Positions 53,761 to 61,445 of a stretch of DNA of 64,000 nt are shown in pieces. Source of the DNA: Bacillus sp. CH30_1T (GTDB lineage: Bacteria > Bacillota > Bacilli > Bacillales > Bacillaceae_B); contig NZ_VTUY01000011.1 of assembly GCF_008364765.1 (NCBI RefSeq), positions 1 through 64,000 of the forward strand, given 5' to 3'. The number at the start of each line of letters is the position of its first letter. Position 1 is the first letter of the stretch. The notes under the pieces were generated by a model. That model did no database searches. It had not been told where the DNA came from and saw nothing but the letters and a program-made list of their open reading frames with translations. The position numbers were made by a program, and so were the translations under genes.

Positions 53761-55221
53761 GTGGATAACAGAAAACTTACAACGAATCAAGGCTCCCCGA
53801 TCGGCGATAACCAGAACTCGATTACAGCTGGAGAAAGAGGACCTGCACTGCTTGAAGATTATCAGCTAATTGAGAAATTGGCTCACTTCGATCGAGAACG
53901 AGTTCCTGAAAGAGTCGTTCACGCCAGAGGAGCGGGAGCGCATGGTACATTCATTACAAAAAACAGCATGAAAAAATATACAAAAGCCGCACTTTTTCAA
54001 GAAGCTGGCAAAGAAACACCTGTATTTGCCCGTTTTTCCACTGTCGTCCATGGACAGCATTCTCCTGAAACCTTACGGGATCCCCGTGGATTTGCCGTGA
54101 AATTTTATACAGAAGAAGGAAACTGGGATTTTGTGGGGAATAACCTTCCTGTCTTCTTTATTCGTGATGCTATGAAGTTCCCGGATATGGTTCATTCTTT
54201 AAAGCCGAATCCACAAACGAATATCCAAGAACCTGAGAGATATTGGGATTTCATGTCCTTGACTCCGGAATCTACCAATATGCTCCTGCATCTCTATACG
54301 GATGAAGGGATTCCAGCTAACTATAGACAAATGCGCGGATCCAGTGTGCATGCCTATAAATGGGTGAATGATGCGGGGAATACCGTGTATGTGAAGTTGA
54401 GCTGGAAACCAAAGCAAGGCATTGAGAATCTATCTTCAGAAAAAGCAGCAGAAATCCAAGGGAAAGATTTTAACCATGCAAGTCGTGATCTCTATGAATC
54501 GATTGAGAAAGGTGAATTCCCGGAATGGGATCTGTATGTTCAGGTACTGGATCCCATGGACATGGATACCTTTGATTTCGATCCTCTTGATGCAACGAAG
54601 GATTGGGCGGAGGATGACATTCCATCTCACTTTGTCGGTACGATGATTTTAAATGAAAATCCAGAAAACATCTTTGCGGAAACGGAATCAGTGGGCTTCA
54701 ATCCTGGAGTGCTGGTGAACGGAATGCTTCCGTCCGAAGATAAGTTGTTACAAGGAAGATTATTCTCTTATTCAGACACACAACGTTATCGAATCGGCGC
54801 CAACTACATGCAACTCCCGATCAACTGTCCATTTGCTCAAGTGGCGAATAACCAGAGGGACGGACATATGCCATTCAAGCAGCAGACGGGCTCAGTGAAC
54901 TATGAGCCGAACAGCTTCGATGATACACCGAAAGAAGTGGGGGGATATACGGAAATACATCAGCCGATGACGGGTGAAAGAGGAAGACAGAAAATCCGGA
55001 AGACAGATGATTTCGGTCAGGCTGGACGCATTTACAGAAGCTACCCGGATGAAGTGAAAGAGCAAGTAGTGAAAAATATTTCCAGTGAACTATCACAAAT
55101 TAACAAAAGAATTGCATTGCGCGCAGTGTGTAATTTCTTCCGGGCGGATGTAGAGCTCGGTAAGAGGTTGGCGGAACGTATTGGGGTGGATTTGACCCCT
55201 TATTTGCAGCATATGGAATAA
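53761..55221 (+). CDS. katA: Vegetative catalase KatA
   Basis: A 486-residue haem catalase of the small-subunit clade. The distal histidine is in RVVHARGAGAHG, the distal asparagine is in FVGNNLPVFFIRD, and the haem-ligand tyrosine is in RLFSYSDTQRYRIGANY. It breaks hydrogen peroxide to water and oxygen in the cytoplasm. The GTG at 53761 is chosen because AAGGAGTG lies before it; the GTG at 53752 overlaps that site. Two PerR-type boxes upstream indicate peroxide induction. Confidence 0.95.
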   Translation: MDNRKLTTNQGSPIGDNQNSITAGERGPALLEDYQLIEKLAHFDRERVPERVVHARGAGAHGTFITKNSMKKYTKAALFQEAGKETPVFARFSTVVHGQHSPETLRDPRGFAVKFYTEEGNWDFVGNNLPVFFIRDAMKFPDMVHSLKPNPQTNIQEPERYWDFMSLTPESTNMLLHLYTDEGIPANYRQMRGSSVHAYKWVNDAGNTVYVKLSWKPKQGIENLSSEKAAEIQGKDFNHASRDLYESIEKGEFPEWDLYVQVLDPMDMDTFDFDPLDATKDWAEDDIPSHFVGTMILNENPENIFAETESVGFNPGVLVNGMLPSEDKLLQGRLFSYSDTQRYRIGANYMQLPINCPFAQVANNQRDGHMPFKQQTGSVNYEPNSFDDTPKEVGGYTEIHQPMTGERGRQKIRKTDDFGQAGRIYRSYPDEVKEQVVKNISSELSQINKRIALRAVCNFFRADVELGKRLAERIGVDLTPYLQHME

Positions 55222-55370
55222 GTATGGATGATTGAGTACTGGTCTTTTTGTCGGTGAAGATGCACTGATGAAGGGGCTGGTGCTCTTTTATGTTTTGGGG
55301 AATTTTAGTGGGGTGTGAAGATTTAATGAAGAGGGAGAAGAAGGATTCTAAACATTGAATAGTCTTCAAC

Positions 55371-55450
55371 AATATTTATCTGCCATATTCAGGTTTTATC
55401 TGCCGTATTCAAAATTTACGTGCCATTTATAATTTTTATCTGCCATTTTC
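55371..55450. repeat. Four-unit 20-bp tandem repeat
   Basis: Four consecutive units of exactly 20 bases start at 55371, 55391, 55411 and 55431. The first is AATATTTATCTGCCATATTC, and the shared core is TTTA(T/C)(C/G)TGCC(A/G)T. The phase is perfect while individual bases have drifted. Confidence 0.75.
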
Positions 55451-55504
55451 CAAAAAAACGACAAAAATCACATACCGAAACAACCCCAATCACCCAAAAA
55501 AACA

Positions 55505-55536
55505 AAAAGCCACTCCCCAAAAAAGAGAAGTGACCA
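55505..55536 (-). terminator. Terminator after rocR
   Basis: On the reverse strand GTCACTTCTC pairs, with G-U pairs, with GGGGAGTGGC around TTTTTT, followed by TTTTTG. Confidence 0.6.
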
Positions 55537-55542
55537 CCACCA

Positions 55543-56925
55543 TCAAAACGAATTCCGTTCGATCCCGTACTTCCGAATCCGATACTGCAAATTCTGCCGG
55601 CTCATTCCAAGGGACTTCGCCGTTTTGGTGATATTAAAGTCATGGTATTTCAAAGATTTTTGAATATAATAGGTTTCGGCTTCTTCTATGAAAAGCTCCA
55701 GTGGTTTGATCTCTGTTCCGGATTGGTAGAGGAACTCCGATTCATCCTGGTTTTCTTCTCCGCCAGATGTGTGGTGGATGCGTTGCCTGAAACCAAATGG
55801 AAGATGATTGAAACCGATCTCCATTTCAAAGCCAACGAGATTAAACGCTCCCTCGATGACATGCTCAAGTTCCCTCACATTGCCTGGCCAGTCATACTGC
55901 TGAAAAATATCCCATACTTCATCCGAAATCCCCTTAATACTCATGGCAAAATGGTGGTTGAATTGGTCAATGAAATAGTTCACAATCTCCGGTAAATCTT
56001 CTTTTCTCGAACGGAGAGAGGGGATGAAGATTGAAACAATGCTCAGCCTGTAATAGAGGTCCTTTAATAACCGTCCTTCTGCGATGGCGTCGATGGGATC
56101 CTCGTTCACCGTGGCCATCACCCGTACATCGTATGGAAGGTCCGTCCCTCGGGAAAAGAATTTTAATAGCTTCTCTTGGAGGGAAGGGGTTAAGGAGTTG
56201 ATTTCATCGAGCAGGAGCGTTCCTCCCTGGGCTTGTTGGAAGAGGGATGGTCGGTGATCTTCCGGGTTGCTGCCTTCCCGCTCCTCATGAAACAGGATTT
56301 CTTCAAGCATATCATCACGTAATGATGAACAATTCTGGGTGATGAAGGGACGGTTGGCACGGGCGCTGTCGTTATGGATGCTTTGTGCGAAAAGTTCCTT
56401 GCCAGTCCCGATTTCACCACAGATCAACACAGGGGAAGAAGTCCTGGTCGCCCGCTTTCCGGTTTCGATAGCGTCCTTAAGACTGTGATGCTGACCGATG
56501 ATGCTATCAAAGGTATATAAGCTGCTCGGACGTTTATGTATATGATCTCTCATCACTTTTTCGAGCTTGGTGATGTCCCTGGCAATTTCAATCGCTCCAA
56601 TCAACACCTCATCATGAAAAATAGGGAAAGTATCGTTCATCGTCGTGATTTCGATACCGTTTATATTAAAGTAAGTTTGCTTCACATTGAGGGTTGGTTC
56701 CTTTGTGTTTAGAACTTTAAGAAGGGTACTTTCCTCTTCAGAGTGAAATTGGAAAACATCCAACAAATTTTTATCCAGGACGTCCTCAATTTCCATGCCT
56801 TCGATTTCACGCATTTTACGATTGTAGATGATGGTTCTCCCGGTAGAATCGATGACATGAACGCCTGATTCAAGATGTTCAGCGACTTTTTCGTACATAT
56901 ACAAACGTTTTTCGGATTCCAGCAT
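55543..56925 (-). CDS. rocR: RocR-like AAA+ regulator lacking the GAFTGA loop
   Basis: A 460-residue regulator with the RocR layout: a PAS sensor (residues 10-120), an AAA+ domain (140-365) and a Fis-type helix-turn-helix (430-452). Walker A (GEIGTGK, 170-176), Walker B (LLLDE, 237-241), the YYRL arginine and sensor II GNVREL are intact. The sigma-54-contacting GAFTGA motif should lie at about 212-222, but the sequence reads FHEEREGSNPED. The pre-sensor-1 loop (255-266) is also shorter than in B. subtilis RocR. Known RocR responds to ornithine/citrulline and activates roc genes with sigma-L. This one probably still controls the divergent roc genes, but by another mechanism. Confidence 0.8.
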   Translation of the reverse strand: MLESEKRLYMYEKVAEHLESGVHVIDSTGRTIIYNRKMREIEGMEIEDVLDKNLLDVFQFHSEEESTLLKVLNTKEPTLNVKQTYFNINGIEITTMNDTFPIFHDEVLIGAIEIARDITKLEKVMRDHIHKRPSSLYTFDSIIGQHHSLKDAIETGKRATRTSSPVLICGEIGTGKELFAQSIHNDSARANRPFITQNCSSLRDDMLEEILFHEEREGSNPEDHRPSLFQQAQGGTLLLDEINSLTPSLQEKLLKFFSRGTDLPYDVRVMATVNEDPIDAIAEGRLLKDLYYRLSIVSIFIPSLRSRKEDLPEIVNYFIDQFNHHFAMSIKGISDEVWDIFQQYDWPGNVRELEHVIEGAFNLVGFEMEIGFNHLPFGFRQRIHHTSGGEENQDESEFLYQSGTEIKPLELFIEEAETYYIQKSLKYHDFNITKTAKSLGMSRQNLQYRIRKYGIERNSF

Positions 56926-57087
56926 GCTGTCTCTCTCCTCTTCATTTTTGTTAGATCTTACTGCAAAACGTATCGTCTATAGTCTTCTTTTTGTGCAAAT
57001 TTTCCATCATTTTGTTGTTTGTTTTATGACTTAGTAGCAAAGGAATTCGCAAAAAGAGTGGAATTATAAAAAATTATAAAAAAACTC

Positions 57088-57116
57088 TTGAAAAACGCAA
57101 CTATCTTTTGCATTAT
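57088..57116 (+). promoter_or_regulatory. Candidate sigma-A-like promoter of rocA
   Basis: TTGAAA (57088-57093) and CATTAT (57111-57116) are 17 bases apart. The -10 box matches only 4 of 6 positions, so the promoter would be weak without help. Confidence 0.35.
57095..57113. promoter_or_regulatory. RocR-type operator, copy 1
   Basis: ACGCAACTATCTTTTGCAT is an inverted repeat (ACGCAA-N7-TTGCAT). It lies between the candidate -35 and -10 boxes of rocA. The TGCAA/TTGCA pattern resembles RocR activating sequences in B. subtilis as I remember them. Confidence 0.55.
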
Positions 57117-57138
57117 TATAAGTGTAAGGGTTTTCTAA

Positions 57139-57157
57139 ATGCAAATATTTTTTGCAT
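57139..57157. promoter_or_regulatory. RocR-type operator, copy 2
   Basis: ATGCAAATATTTTTTGCAT is a perfect inverted repeat of ATGCAA with the same N7 spacer as copy 1. The centres are 44 bases apart, about four helical turns, so the two sites face the same side of the DNA. Confidence 0.6.
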
Positions 57158-57224
57158 ACCTGTTAACTAACCTCGTCACTAGAGGATGAATAAAAAATCT
57201 TTGTTTAAAGGGGGAAGTGCCCAA

Positions 57225-58769
57225 ATGATTCCTTACAAACACGAACCGTTTACAGATTTCTCAGAGAAAGAGAATCAGAAAGAATTTAATGAAGGTCTAA
57301 AGGTAGTAGAAAGTTACTTAGGTCAAGACTATCCATTAGTGATTGGCGGAGAGCGGGTAACAACTGATGATAAACTGGTTTCTGTAAACCCAGCAAACAA
57401 AGAAGAGATCATCGGACGTGTATCAAAAGCAAATCAGGATTTAGCTGAAAAAGCGATGAATGTTGCCTTTGATACATTCCAAACTTGGCGTAAAGTGAAG
57501 CCTGAAACTCGCGCAGATATCCTTTTCCGCGCTTCCGCTATTGTTCGTCGTCGTAAGCATGAGTTCTCTGCTTTATTAACCAAAGAAGCAGGTAAACCAT
57601 GGAATGAAGCAGATGCTGATACAGCAGAAGCAATCGACTTTATGGAGTATTATGCTCGTCAAATGCTTCGTTTGAAAGATGGGTTCCCTGTTGAAAGCCG
57701 TCCAGGTGAATATAATCAATTCAACTACATTCCATTAGGAGTCGGAGTTGTCATCTCACCTTGGAATTTTGCCTTTGCGATCATGGCTGGTACAGCAGTA
57801 GCAGCAATCGTTACGGGTAACACGGTTCTTCTTAAACCAGCTTCAACGACTGCTGTTGTGGCAGCGAAATTCATTGAAGTATTAGAAGAAGCAGGTCTTC
57901 CGAAAGGGGTAATCAACTACGTTCCTGGAAGTGGGGCTGAAGTTGGTGATTACCTGGTTGATCATCCAAAGACACGTTTTATTTCATTCACAGGTTCTCG
58001 TGACGTTGGTATCCGTATCTACGAAAGAGCAGCAAAAGTGAACCCGGGTCAAAAATGGCTGAAACGCGTTATCGCTGAAATGGGCGGTAAGGATACAATC
58101 GTTGTGGATAGTGAAGGAGATCTTGAATTAGCGGCTAAATCAATCGTTGCTTCTGCATTCGGATTCTCCGGACAAAAATGTTCTGCTTGTTCACGTGCCG
58201 TGGTTGTAGAAGATGTTTACGATCAAGTACTTGAGCGTGCAGTGGAATTAACGAAAGAATTAACAGTTGGAGATCCTACAGACCGTGATAACTTCATGGG
58301 TCCTGTGATCGACCAGGCGTCATTCGATAAAATCATGAGCTATATTGAAATCGGTAAAGAAGAAGGTAAGTTAATGATTGGTGGAGAAGGGGATAATTCA
58401 AAAGGCTTCTTCGTAAAACCAACGATCTTTGCTGATCTTGATGCGAATGCTCGCTTGATGCAAGAAGAAATCTTCGGACCGGTTGTCGCATTCTCGAAAG
58501 CAAAAGACTTTGATCATGCACTTGAGATCGCGAATAACACAGACTACGGTTTAACAGGTGCAGTCATCACCAATAACCGTGCGAAGATCGAACAGGCTCG
58601 TGAAGATTTCCATGTTGGGAACCTTTACTTCAATAGAGGCTGTACAGGAGCAATCGTTGGCTACCAACCATTTGGTGGATTCAACATGTCGGGTACCGAC
58701 TCCAAAGCGGGCGGACCGGATTATCTTCTGCTTCACCTTCAAGCAAAAACAACATCAGAAACACTTTAA
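57225..58769 (+). CDS. rocA: 1-pyrroline-5-carboxylate dehydrogenase RocA
   Basis: A 514-residue aldehyde dehydrogenase-family enzyme that oxidises P5C (glutamate semialdehyde) to glutamate. AHEPFTDF-like start (YKHEPFTDF), [12 protein letters not shown] with the glutamate, and [12 protein letters not shown] with the catalytic cysteine match RocA, as does the length (515 in B. subtilis). [17 protein letters not shown] is a RocA-specific block. The ATG at 57225 lies ten bases after AAGGGGG; the ATG at 57186 is less likely. It receives P5C from RocD, encoded next. Confidence 0.95.
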
Positions 58770-58855: not shown

Positions 58856-60049
58856 ATGACAGTAAGTACTTATTCGATTATTGAACAAACAGAAAAATAT
58901 GGTGCAAAAAATTATCACCCACTTCCAATCGTTATTTCAGAAGCGGAGGGTGTATGGGTTAAAGATCCAGAAGGCAATAAGTATATGGATATGCTTAGCG
59001 CTTATTCAGCAGTCAACCAGGGACATCGCCATCCAAAAATCATCCAGGCGTTAAAAGATCAAGCAGACCGTGTGACACTGACGTCACGTGCGTTCCACAA
59101 CGACCAATTAGCCCCTTGGTATGAGAAGATTTGTAAGATGGCTGGTAAAGACATGGCTCTTCCAATGAATACAGGTGCCGAGGCAGTGGAAACGGCGATC
59201 AAGACAGCTCGCCGCTGGGCGTATGATGTGAAGGGGGTTGCTGAAAATAGTGCGGAAATCATCGCGTGTAACGGGAACTTCCACGGAAGAACGATGACAG
59301 CTGTTTCCCTATCTTCAGAAGAAGAATACAAGCGTGGTTTCGGACCGATGCTTCCAGGAATCAACTTGATTCCATACGGTGATCTGGAGGCGTTAAAAGA
59401 AGCCATCACTCCAAATACAGCCGCTTTCCTTATCGAACCAATCCAGGGGGAAGCAGGGATCGTATTTCCTCCTAAAGGATTCATGAAAGCAGCACACGAA
59501 TTATGTAAAGAAAACAACGTTCTATTCATTGCAGACGAAATTCAGGCAGGGCTTGCCCGCTCAGGGAAGATGTTTGCATGTGAGTGGGAAGATGTTGATC
59601 CTGACATGTACATTTTAGGAAAAGCACTTGGAGGCGGAGTGTTCCCGATTTCATGTGTTGTGGCCAATGAAGAAGTATTAGGCGTATTCAACCCTGGCTC
59701 CCACGGTTCTACTTTCGGAGGGAATCCAATGGCATGTGCGGTTTCTGTCGCATCACTGGATGTATTGATCGATGAAAACCTGGCAGAGCGTTCTCTTCAA
59801 ATGGGAGAATACTTTATGAGTAAACTTCGTGAGATAGATAATCCTATGATTAAGGAAGTTCGTGGTAGCGGATTATTTATCGGAGTGGAACTGAAAGAAC
59901 CAGCCCGTAAATACTGTGAACAACTGAAAGAAGAAGGGCTGCTTTGTAAAGAAACACATGATACAGTCATTCGTTTTGCTCCACCACTTGTCATCTCACA
60001 AGAAGACCTGGATTGGGCAATCGAAAGAATCAAAAAAGTATTGTCTTAA
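58856..60049 (+). CDS. rocD: Ornithine aminotransferase RocD
   Basis: A 397-residue class III aminotransferase. [40 protein letters not shown] and the PLP-lysine motif [13 protein letters not shown] identify ornithine-oxo-acid transaminase. It moves the delta-amino group of ornithine to 2-oxoglutarate, giving glutamate semialdehyde/P5C for RocA. A GGAGCC/GGGCTCC hairpin in the 86-base gap after rocA has no T-run and may be a processing or attenuation element. AAGGAGG precedes the ATG. Confidence 0.95.
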
Positions 60050-60200
60050 TTCCAGCTGGAGTTAAAAGTTTTTTTCTTAAATCGACTGGAATAGGCATGA
60101 AAATAAAAATTATTTCTTTCCCCAGTCAATGGTTAAAGATACGGTAATATGTTACAATTACAACGTTTCAGATCACATAATAAAGAGGCGAATGTTTACA

Positions 60201-61445
60201 ATGGGAGAAAACCTTAATCTGTTTACTTCTACACAGCATGTCATCAATGATGCTTTATCCAAGCTAGGGTATACGGAAGAAATGTATGAACTTCTGAAAG
60301 AGCCGATTCGTATGTTGACCGTTCGTATCCCGGTTCGAATGGACGATGGCAGTATCAAAGTATTTACGGGCTACCGTGCACAACATAACGACGCAGTCGG
60401 ACCTACCAAGGGTGGAGTACGATTCCATCCTGAAGTGGATGAAGAGGAAGTAAAGGCTTTATCCATGTGGATGAGCTTGAAATGCGGTATTGTTGATTTA
60501 CCATACGGTGGAGGAAAAGGCGGGATCATCTGTGATCCAAGAACGATGTCTTTCACTGAACTGGAAAAGCTAAGCCGCGGCTATGTTCGTGCCATCAGTC
60601 AAATTGTTGGCCCTACAAAGGATATACCGGCACCAGATGTATACACAAACTCACAGATCATGGCTTGGATGATGGATGAATACAGCCGTCTTCGTGAAAA
60701 TGATTCACCAGGATTCATTACAGGAAAACCGATTGTTCTTGGTGGTTCCCAAGGTCGTGAAAAGGCAACAGCTCAAGGTGTTACAATCTGTATTGACCAA
60801 GCTGCAAAGAAACGTGGCATCGACATCAAAGGTGCACGCGTCGTCATCCAAGGTTTTGGAAATGCCGGCAGTTTCTTAGCAAAGTTCATGCACGATGCCG
60901 GTGCAAAGGTCATCGCCATATCCGATGCCCATGGTGCCCTTCATGATCCGGCTGGTTTGGATATTGATTATCTGTTAGATCGTCGAGATAGCTTCGGTAC
61001 AGTAACGACTCTATTTGAAAACACGATTTCAAATAAGGAATTATTGGAGCTTGAGTGTGACATTCTTGTTCCGGCAGCGATTTCAAACCAAATCACTGAA
61101 GAGAATGTCTATGATATTAAAGCATCCATTGTGGTAGAAGCTGCAAACGGTCCGACTACCTTTGAAGCAACTCGAATTCTTTCTGAAAGAGGAATCCTGC
61201 TTGTACCAGACGTACTAGCAAGTGCTGGTGGAGTAACGGTTTCATATTTCGAATGGGTTCAGAATAATCAGGGGTATTATTGGACGGAAGAAGAAGTAAA
61301 CGAGAAGCTTCATGCTAAACTTGTCGAAGCTTTCAACAATGTATATGAAACATCTCAGAATCGTCGAGTGAATATGCGACTCGCCGCATACATGGTCGGC
61401 GCACGCAAAATGGCTGAAGCCTCTAGATTCAGAGGTTGGGTGTAA
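60201..61445 (+). CDS. rocG: Catabolic glutamate dehydrogenase (RocG/GudB type)
   Basis: A 414-residue NAD-dependent glutamate dehydrogenase. KGGVRFHPEV, LPYGGGKGGI with the catalytic lysine, PAPDVYTNSQIMAWM and the Rossmann motif GFGNAGSF are intact. It deaminates glutamate to 2-oxoglutarate, completing ornithine catabolism with rocA and rocD. The ATG at 60201 best fits the family start; an ATG at 60192 is only three bases after AGAGG. RocG and GudB cannot be told apart here; position beside rocD favours RocG. Confidence 0.85.
   Translation: MGENLNLFTSTQHVINDALSKLGYTEEMYELLKEPIRMLTVRIPVRMDDGSIKVFTGYRAQHNDAVGPTKGGVRFHPEVDEEEVKALSMWMSLKCGIVDLPYGGGKGGIICDPRTMSFTELEKLSRGYVRAISQIVGPTKDIPAPDVYTNSQIMAWMMDEYSRLRENDSPGFITGKPIVLGGSQGREKATAQGVTICIDQAAKKRGIDIKGARVVIQGFGNAGSFLAKFMHDAGAKVIAISDAHGALHDPAGLDIDYLLDRRDSFGTVTTLFENTISNKELLELECDILVPAAISNQITEENVYDIKASIVVEAANGPTTFEATRILSERGILLVPDVLASAGGVTVSYFEWVQNNQGYYWTEEEVNEKLHAKLVEAFNNVYETSQNRRVNMRLAAYMVGARKMAEASRFRGWV

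Follow-up and report, generated by a model that had tools for sequence, protein, structure and literature searches.

The RocR-like regulator encoded at positions 55543..56925 (minus strand) of the window, i.e., the whole 64,000-nucleotide stretch of DNA analyzed here, appears to have left sigma-54, an explanation that we consider the best overall and hold with moderate confidence. Its control of the adjacent rocA operon is very probably independent of sigma-54 and exerted at a sigma-A-type promoter, and we lean toward the full model in which RocR would repress this promoter, with the sign of control deduced from the positions of the predicted binding sites. The promoter type, the pair of operators and its geometry, the clade-wide loss of the GAFTGA loop and the degree of decay are read from sequence.

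The regulator and its target operon

The encoded protein (460 aa) combines a PAS domain, an AAA+ domain without GAFTGA and a Fis-type helix-turn-helix (HTH); the domain search identified PAS, Sigma54_activat (PF00158), the AAA lid and the Fis-type HTH. The motifs that are kept include Walker A (GEIGTGKE), Walker B (LLLDE), the sensor-I asparagine and WPGNVRE. In the alignment to orthologues, the loop 1 segment at the position of GAFTGA reads FHEEREGSNPED (degenerate loop, codons of residues 212–230 at 56236..56292, minus strand), and loop 2 lacks 8 residues relative to the GAFTGA-bearing orthologues. The 8-residue deletion is present in all 25 core sequences (L012–L036), is larger in L037–L039 and is absent from L042–L045 and L047. 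The first-pass annotation had described a RocR-like regulator with a Fis-type DNA-binding end, no GAFTGA and a short second loop; the domain search and the gene neighbors agree with the former part, and the alignment with the latter. The ATPase motifs, which it considered intact, are so only in part: both Walker motifs and the sensor residues are in place, but the LRKDLYYRL signature has leucine instead of its first arginine (EGRLLKDLYYRL). This residue, which we take to be an arginine finger (R293 of NtrC1, R162 of PspF), is leucine in 28 of the 28 sequences L012–L039 and arginine in all 42 orthologues with a sigma-54 promoter; the second arginine of the signature is retained in the window RocR, as are both Walker motifs.

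By its fold, RocR is a bEBP that lacks GAFTGA. The AlphaFold model (mean pLDDT 82.5, with loop residues 215–223 below 50) has its top PDB match in 1ojl, a sigma-54 activator structure; an AAA+ fold is predicted both for the window RocR and for a relative from family f39 without Walker B, and these models are silent on the sign of control. Against the TyrR equivalog model, the protein scores 179.6 bits at a cut-off of 576 and hence is not a member. A FastTree phylogeny with outgroup paralogues places it among GAFTGA-bearing, roc-linked regulators, separate from the paralogues. Judging from its roc neighbors, this tree and the shared operators, the window gene belongs to the RocR orthologue group. 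In a contig scan, the window RocR matched a Rossellomorea aquimaris record across its full length at 95% identity, and the genus was therefore taken as Rossellomorea.

In the window, rocR is divergent from rocA-rocD-gdh, all three on the plus strand, and rocA or rocD adjoins rocR in 36 of 36 loci of the genus. The first gene of the operon, rocA (57226..58769; NCBIfam PRK03137/TIGR01237), encodes L-glutamate gamma-semialdehyde dehydrogenase; its open reading frame opens at 57186, and the likelier start is the ATG at 57226 (MIPYKHEPF), which follows the ribosome-binding-site-like GGGGGAAG. It is followed by rocD for ornithine aminotransferase (58856..60049; NCBIfam PRK04073) and by a gene for a RocG/GudB-like glutamate dehydrogenase (60129..61445; Pfam PF00208/PF02812, NCBIfam matches below the curated cut-offs), for which the start at 60129 is probably too far upstream and the MGENLNLF start is likelier. 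The gene content next to rocR varies within the genus: rocD, not rocA, adjoins rocR in 18 of the 25 core loci (L013–L017, L019, L021, L023–L028, L030, L031, L034–L036). A 3' remnant of rocA is found between the promoter and rocD in L013, L014 and L015, so that rocA seems to have been excised from the operon.

The predicted rocA promoter and its predicted operators

The conserved element upstream of rocA consists of TTGAAN-17-CATTAT and two RocR-type palindromes, the first lying in the spacer and the other about 44 bp farther downstream. In the window, the predicted sigma-A promoter of the operon comprises, on the plus strand, the -35 hexamer TTGAAA (57088..57093; columns 98–100% conserved) and the -10 hexamer CATTAT (57111..57116), separated by 17 bp as in 58 of the 59 element loci, and is preceded by an A/T-rich tract just 5' of the -35 hexamer (57066..57085, plus strand; columns partly conserved) that might function like an UP element. 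The hexamers match those of sigma-A at 9 of 12 positions, and a promoter scan returned 2 promoter-like sites versus 1.0 expected, i.e., no enrichment over shuffles. No -24/-12 promoter was found in the rocR-rocA intergenic region of the window, where the best score on the sigma-54 matrix is 2.9, compared to 13.7–24.1 in the positive group. A search of 397 genomes of the order with the core pattern of the element (up to 2 mismatches) yielded matches in 36 genomes from 8 of the 135 genera, and the reversed control gave 0 matches; in each of the 36, a GAFTGA-less RocR homologue is located beside the element.

Predicted operator 1 (CGCAACTATCTTTTGCA, 57096..57112, plus strand) lies inside the -35/-10 spacer, and predicted operator 2 (TGCAAATATTTTTTGCA, 57140..57156, plus strand) lies 43–44 bp from it in 57 of 59 loci, a clear second operator being missing in L173 and L252. 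Counted from the first base of CATTAT, the centers are at -7 in 59/59 loci (CATTAT and the operator 1 half-sites are parts of the search pattern, and their conservation is by construction) and at +36/37 in 57/59. With the start placed 12 bp beyond the position where the -10 hexamer begins, the predicted operators would be centered at about -19 and +26, and both positions, overlapping the core promoter or just downstream of it, would fit repression. Operators beyond this pair, upstream of the -35 hexamer, number only 7 in the 59 element loci (at -59, -60 and -94) and are not conserved. In the sigma-54 group, RocR-type palindromes are located upstream of the -12 element, between -264 and -52, in 35 of 42 loci, with at least two in 26 and, by the same rule, none in 7. 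Operators paired at 42–44 bp occur in 57 of 59 element loci and 22 of 42 sigma-54 loci, and in none of 50 dinucleotide shuffles per region; GAFTGA-bearing, roc-linked relatives from the order thus have the palindrome pair of the window RocR as well.

Between the operators is a conserved block, TGTAAGGGTTTTC (57123..57135, plus strand; columns mostly 95–100% conserved), which resembles a CcpA cre box. The block is lost in L241 and, in the sigma-54 locus L052, is present just upstream of the -24 element; it is possibly a cre box retained through the promoter switch. Rfam gave no match to a known RNA element in 55000–58500. The genome has five exact TGCAA-N7-TTGCA sites, of which operator 2 alone precedes a roc gene. 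On these exact sites, a wider regulon of RocR was considered and rejected: three of the other sites are within coding sequence, and the fifth (L210) falls at the long start of an open reading frame amid ribosomal-protein genes, where a RocR target is thought unlikely. A looser operator scan of the Rossellomorea genomes G002 and G018 gave 20 sites in each, near the control level of 14 and 19.

Loss of SigL as an explanation was discarded, SigL being encoded in the same genome. The five other strong bEBPs all have a GAFTGA-type loop, and each is accompanied by a perfect TTGGCA-N6-TTGCW within ~0.6 kb of the AAA+ domain. The perfect sigma-54 sites listed in the genome number 12, with the nearest ~19 kb away from rocR; we used only perfect sites because the counts at one mismatch (94 and 94) are near those in the controls (84 and 81). 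Judging from sequence, sigma-54 is still in use in this genome.

Promoter type and loop state across the order

Among 150 loci read, 6 duplicates and 5 low-scoring paralogues were dropped; of the resulting 139, the 101 with a divergent roc-type gene form the main count. The element pattern was loosened once, after inspection of the misses and before the final classification of the 139 loci. All 55 loop-less loci with a roc-type neighbor have the element and none has a sigma-54 site; of the 46 loop-bearing ones, 42 have a sigma-54 site, two (L040, L041) have the element and two (L238, L260) have neither promoter type within 400 bp. The 38 loci outside the main count include 27 loop-bearing ones with neither promoter, five loop-bearing ones with a sigma-54 site, two that are loop-less with the element (L174, L175), three that are loop-less with neither (L053, L248, L279), and L278, where the loop reads GAFTEA and a sigma-54 site is present. 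The sigma-54 matrix was derived from the 16 Bacillus thuringiensis sites given in PMC4428206, of which 13 score 14.3–23.8 and three, which are weak, 7.7–10.3. The best scores in the sigma-54 group are 13.7 (L259), 14.9, 15.6 and upward to 24.1, and those in the loop-less loci 12.1 (L027), 11.6 (L186) and then 7.2, so the margin between the groups is narrow at its edge; the L027 and L186 scores exceed those of the three weak training sites, and their sites do not recur as the best elsewhere among the loop-less loci.

In an IQ-TREE phylogeny of 53 rows chosen from the 139, with the loop columns removed, the two promoter types are split by a single branch with support of 100/98. Because one branch divides them, the association reflects one promoter switch, not many independent events. 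The change of promoter type at rocA/rocD is well supported by these sequence comparisons.

Within Rossellomorea, GAFTGA is missing in 34 of 36 genomes; the other two, G002 and G018, have GAFTGS, which we counted as a working loop because it is also present in orthologues with a sigma-54 promoter (L214, L217, L228, L232, L245). Upon aligning homologues of relatives, as the first-pass annotation had proposed, the loss turns out to be clade-wide, with loop-less RocR in seven family groups of the order, one of them that of the 34 genomes of the genus; since the promoter element is beside loop-less RocR in all seven groups, the loss is not confined to one gene or genus. Retention of GAFTGA in close relatives, which was to betray an assembly error, amounts to the two GAFTGS genomes against 34 without the loop. 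An error in sequencing or assembly, a spurious frameshift or a dead gene has a practically negligible probability: no evidence in its favor was found, and against it stand the same loss in 34/36 genus genomes and six other family groups, the open frames and the low pN/pS.

In Rossellomorea RocR (91 pairs from 14 sequences), uncorrected pN/pS is 0.046 in PAS, 0.076 in the AAA+ core, 0.096 in the lid and 0.037 in the HTH; in the loop (residues 213–226), it is 0.365, versus 0.014 in 12 pairs of GAFTGA-bearing RocR. Outside the loop, rocR is under strong purifying selection (pN/pS 0.04–0.10) and therefore is no pseudogene. Loss of the loop had been ascribed to selection for a new mode of action. 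The sigma-54-free part of this idea is favored by the promoter, but relaxed constraint after the promoter switch fits better than selection for loss, because of the contrast in loop pN/pS and the existence of two relatives with the new promoter and an intact loop.

These relatives, L040 and L041 (both Rossellomorea), have the new promoter together with a normal AAA+ domain, with mean identity to GAFTGA-bearing RocR of 77% (86% in the loop), and cluster with the loop-less L042–L047, except for L046 (IQ-TREE support 95/93). In their two genomes, G002 and G018, a perfect sigma-54 promoter precedes an NhaC/ArcD-like antiporter gene directly downstream of rocR (L313:3200-4668 and L312:3044-4513, respectively). 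The antiporter belongs to the NhaC family and matches the ArcD arginine/ornithine antiporter model below the cut-off, which makes it a candidate arginine/ornithine transporter; the RocR-type sites at its promoter are degenerate, and we infer that it may be controlled by RocR. Sigma-54 sites were also searched in ~5 kb on each side of 50 loci, 36 from genomes of the genus (with L045 cut by a contig end) and 14 from other families. In the other 34 genus genomes, the only perfect sigma-54 pattern within these flanks is TTGGCAAGAAGATTGCT in L338 (L033 of the shorter set); it does not have the usual YR bases, and the match probably arose by chance. Among the 14 other-family loci, imperfect sites within ~5 kb of the element loci L349 and L352 (scores 16.7 and 17.5) make further sigma-54 targets possible there.

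Because L040 and L041 combine the new promoter, an intact loop and a neighboring sigma-54 promoter, the simplest reading is that loss of the loop followed the switch of the rocA promoter and probably took place where no sigma-54 target was left. The loop states require 2 changes on the tree, yet a single loss is not rejected (AU p 0.286), and several independent losses were accordingly set aside.

Identity of the AAA+ core to GAFTGA-bearing RocR falls from 77% (L040/L041) to 65%, and is 44% in L037–L039, 39% in family f41 and 35% in f39, while that of the HTH (49–53%) and PAS (45–55%) stays level. Of the 59 element loci, 58 retain Walker A, 40 the DE of Walker B, 36 the second arginine and 14 the first; all four features are found in each of the 42 sigma-54 loci. 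The 19 element loci with an altered Walker B include members of families f30, f38, f39 and f41. As judged from the sequences, graded stages appear to be alive today: L040/L041 (promoter switched, ATPase intact), the window RocR (loop lost) and members of f30, f38, f39 and f41 (Walker B altered). A separate case is presented by L279 and L053 (family f13), where a GAFTGA-less RocR-like protein falls within the element clade on the FastTree phylogeny; in L279, the regulator is divergent from an amino-acid permease-like open reading frame with TTGAAA-17-CATAAT upstream and the element absent, an arrangement that may represent further rewiring.

Proposed mechanism, alternatives and known systems

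We propose that, in the ancestor of the clade, the SigL (-24/-12) promoter of rocA/rocD with upstream RocR sites would have given way to a sigma-A promoter within the RocR site pair. RocR would still sit on two palindromes about four helical turns apart, one filling the spacer between the -35 and -10 hexamers and the other a short way past the start. In the absence of ornithine, citrulline or arginine, it would bridge both operators and shut the rocA promoter, and an inducer acting via the PAS domain would cause it to release the promoter. Once free of sigma-54, the protein would have lost the GAFTGA loop, then loop 2 and the arginine-finger residues and, in some families, Walker B, with PAS and HTH staying conserved during this decay. 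Occupancy of the sites by RocR, the use of sigma-A, repression, the effect of the inducer and the role left for ATP are what we infer here. That an activator was inverted into a repressor by moving the promoter, not the regulator, with the repressor progressively losing its ATPase, seems to us an evenly balanced proposition. The first-pass annotation had envisaged either a repressor or a sigma-A activator of ornithine catabolism; the sigma-54-free, sigma-A-type rocA promoter agrees with what these roles have in common, and the positions of the sites favor the repressor. Site position argues for repression but is no proof: in L040/L041, a single inducer would need to bring about activation at one gene and derepression at another. 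The pN/pS of 0.076 in the AAA+ core also speaks against the repressor model, a mere scaffold having no obvious need for such strong constraint.

Inducer-bound RocR on the two operators might instead distort or loop the core promoter and aid its opening in a TyrR- or MerR-like fashion, so that the ancestral sign would be kept at a sigma-A promoter. Such activation, which we regard as unlikely, would act with one sign on both rocA and the antiporter gene in L040/L041 and is compatible with the moderate hexamers (9/12), and the GAFTGA-less NtrC of Caulobacter is described as activating as well as repressing at sigma-70 promoters (PMC12421884). However, fewer than ~55 bp, with no palindrome, separate rocR from the element in L032 and L040, there is no conserved operator upstream of -35, and the near-invariant -35 hexamer and the A/T-rich tract are as expected for a self-sufficient promoter. 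The spacer has a normal length of 17 bp, unlike the 19–20 bp spacers of MerR promoters.

It is improbable that the element is run by another regulator, with RocR a decaying bystander: the decay of the AAA+ domain in several families and the block TGTAAGGGTTTTC, which is not a RocR-type site, are consistent with this possibility, but PAS and HTH are under strong purifying selection (pN/pS 0.046 and 0.037), the palindromes match those found ahead of sigma-54 roc promoters in both sequence and spacing, and a RocR homologue adjoins the element in all 36 genomes with a core-pattern match. Very improbable, by our estimate, is continued action of RocR together with SigL through its divergent loop, at a cryptic promoter such as GGG-TTTTCTAAAT-GC at operator 2. 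The GG-N10-GC spacing is indeed present there, the genome has SigL, and 4 of 16 sigma-54-controlled B. thuringiensis promoters are reported to be only minimally conserved (PMC4428206). Nevertheless, the operator 2 site scores 0.9 on the sigma-54 matrix, against 14.3–23.8 (13/16) or 7.7–10.3 for the training sites, its spacing is broken in L182 and L184 and its GG in L185, and the loop is hypervariable or deleted in relatives.

The proposed sigma-54-independent repressor can be compared with several known systems. Known RocR proteins are reported to bind enhancer-like sites and to activate SigL promoters in response to ornithine, citrulline or arginine (PMC9245794, PMC4813224, PMC4348106). Given that rocR is reported to be negatively autoregulated (PMC4813224), the lowering of another promoter by RocR may not be new in itself. 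B. thuringiensis RocR is among the bEBPs reported with GAFTGA, its target promoter being TTGGTACGTATTTTGCA (PMC4428206). The window system resembles RocR of Bacillus subtilis and B. thuringiensis in that a PAS-bearing bEBP is encoded beside arginine/ornithine genes, but differs in lacking the loop, the -24/-12 promoter and the upstream sites. TyrR, DhaR and HupR, which combine the bEBP fold with a defective GAFTGA and are reported to be sigma-70 dependent (PMC3162934), likewise have no working GAFTGA but belong to other orthologous groups, whereas Caulobacter NtrC, also a bEBP lacking GAFTGA, is a response regulator, not a PAS protein, and has another regulon in another phylum. A laboratory parallel for the appearance of a SigA-type promoter before roc genes is the ProcD-P1 allele of B. 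subtilis, where a point mutation activates a cryptic SigA-type promoter before rocDEF, otherwise SigL/RocR-dependent; it differs from our case in being a laboratory mutation, and the cited part of that report does not mention RocR operators on the new promoter (PMC9245794). GAFTGA-less bEBPs acting with sigma-70 are thus already known (TyrR, DhaR, HupR, Caulobacter NtrC), and what appears to be new here is a RocR of this kind. No report of a sigma-54-independent RocR was found among the matches listed in the open-access literature.

If the repressor model is true, control of rocA would be opposite in sign to that in B. subtilis. The genus offers a built-in control, in that its two loop-keeping species also have a sigma-54 promoter next to rocR. 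The presence of a PF00158 domain alone is unsafe ground for annotating such genes as sigma-54-dependent. To our knowledge, what has been described of the conversion of a sigma-54 activator into an ordinary sigma-70 regulator is mostly its end points, TyrR being an example. The roc locus shows, in one orthologous gene and its adjoining target promoter, graded stages across families, in the apparent order of promoter, loop and, last, ATPase.
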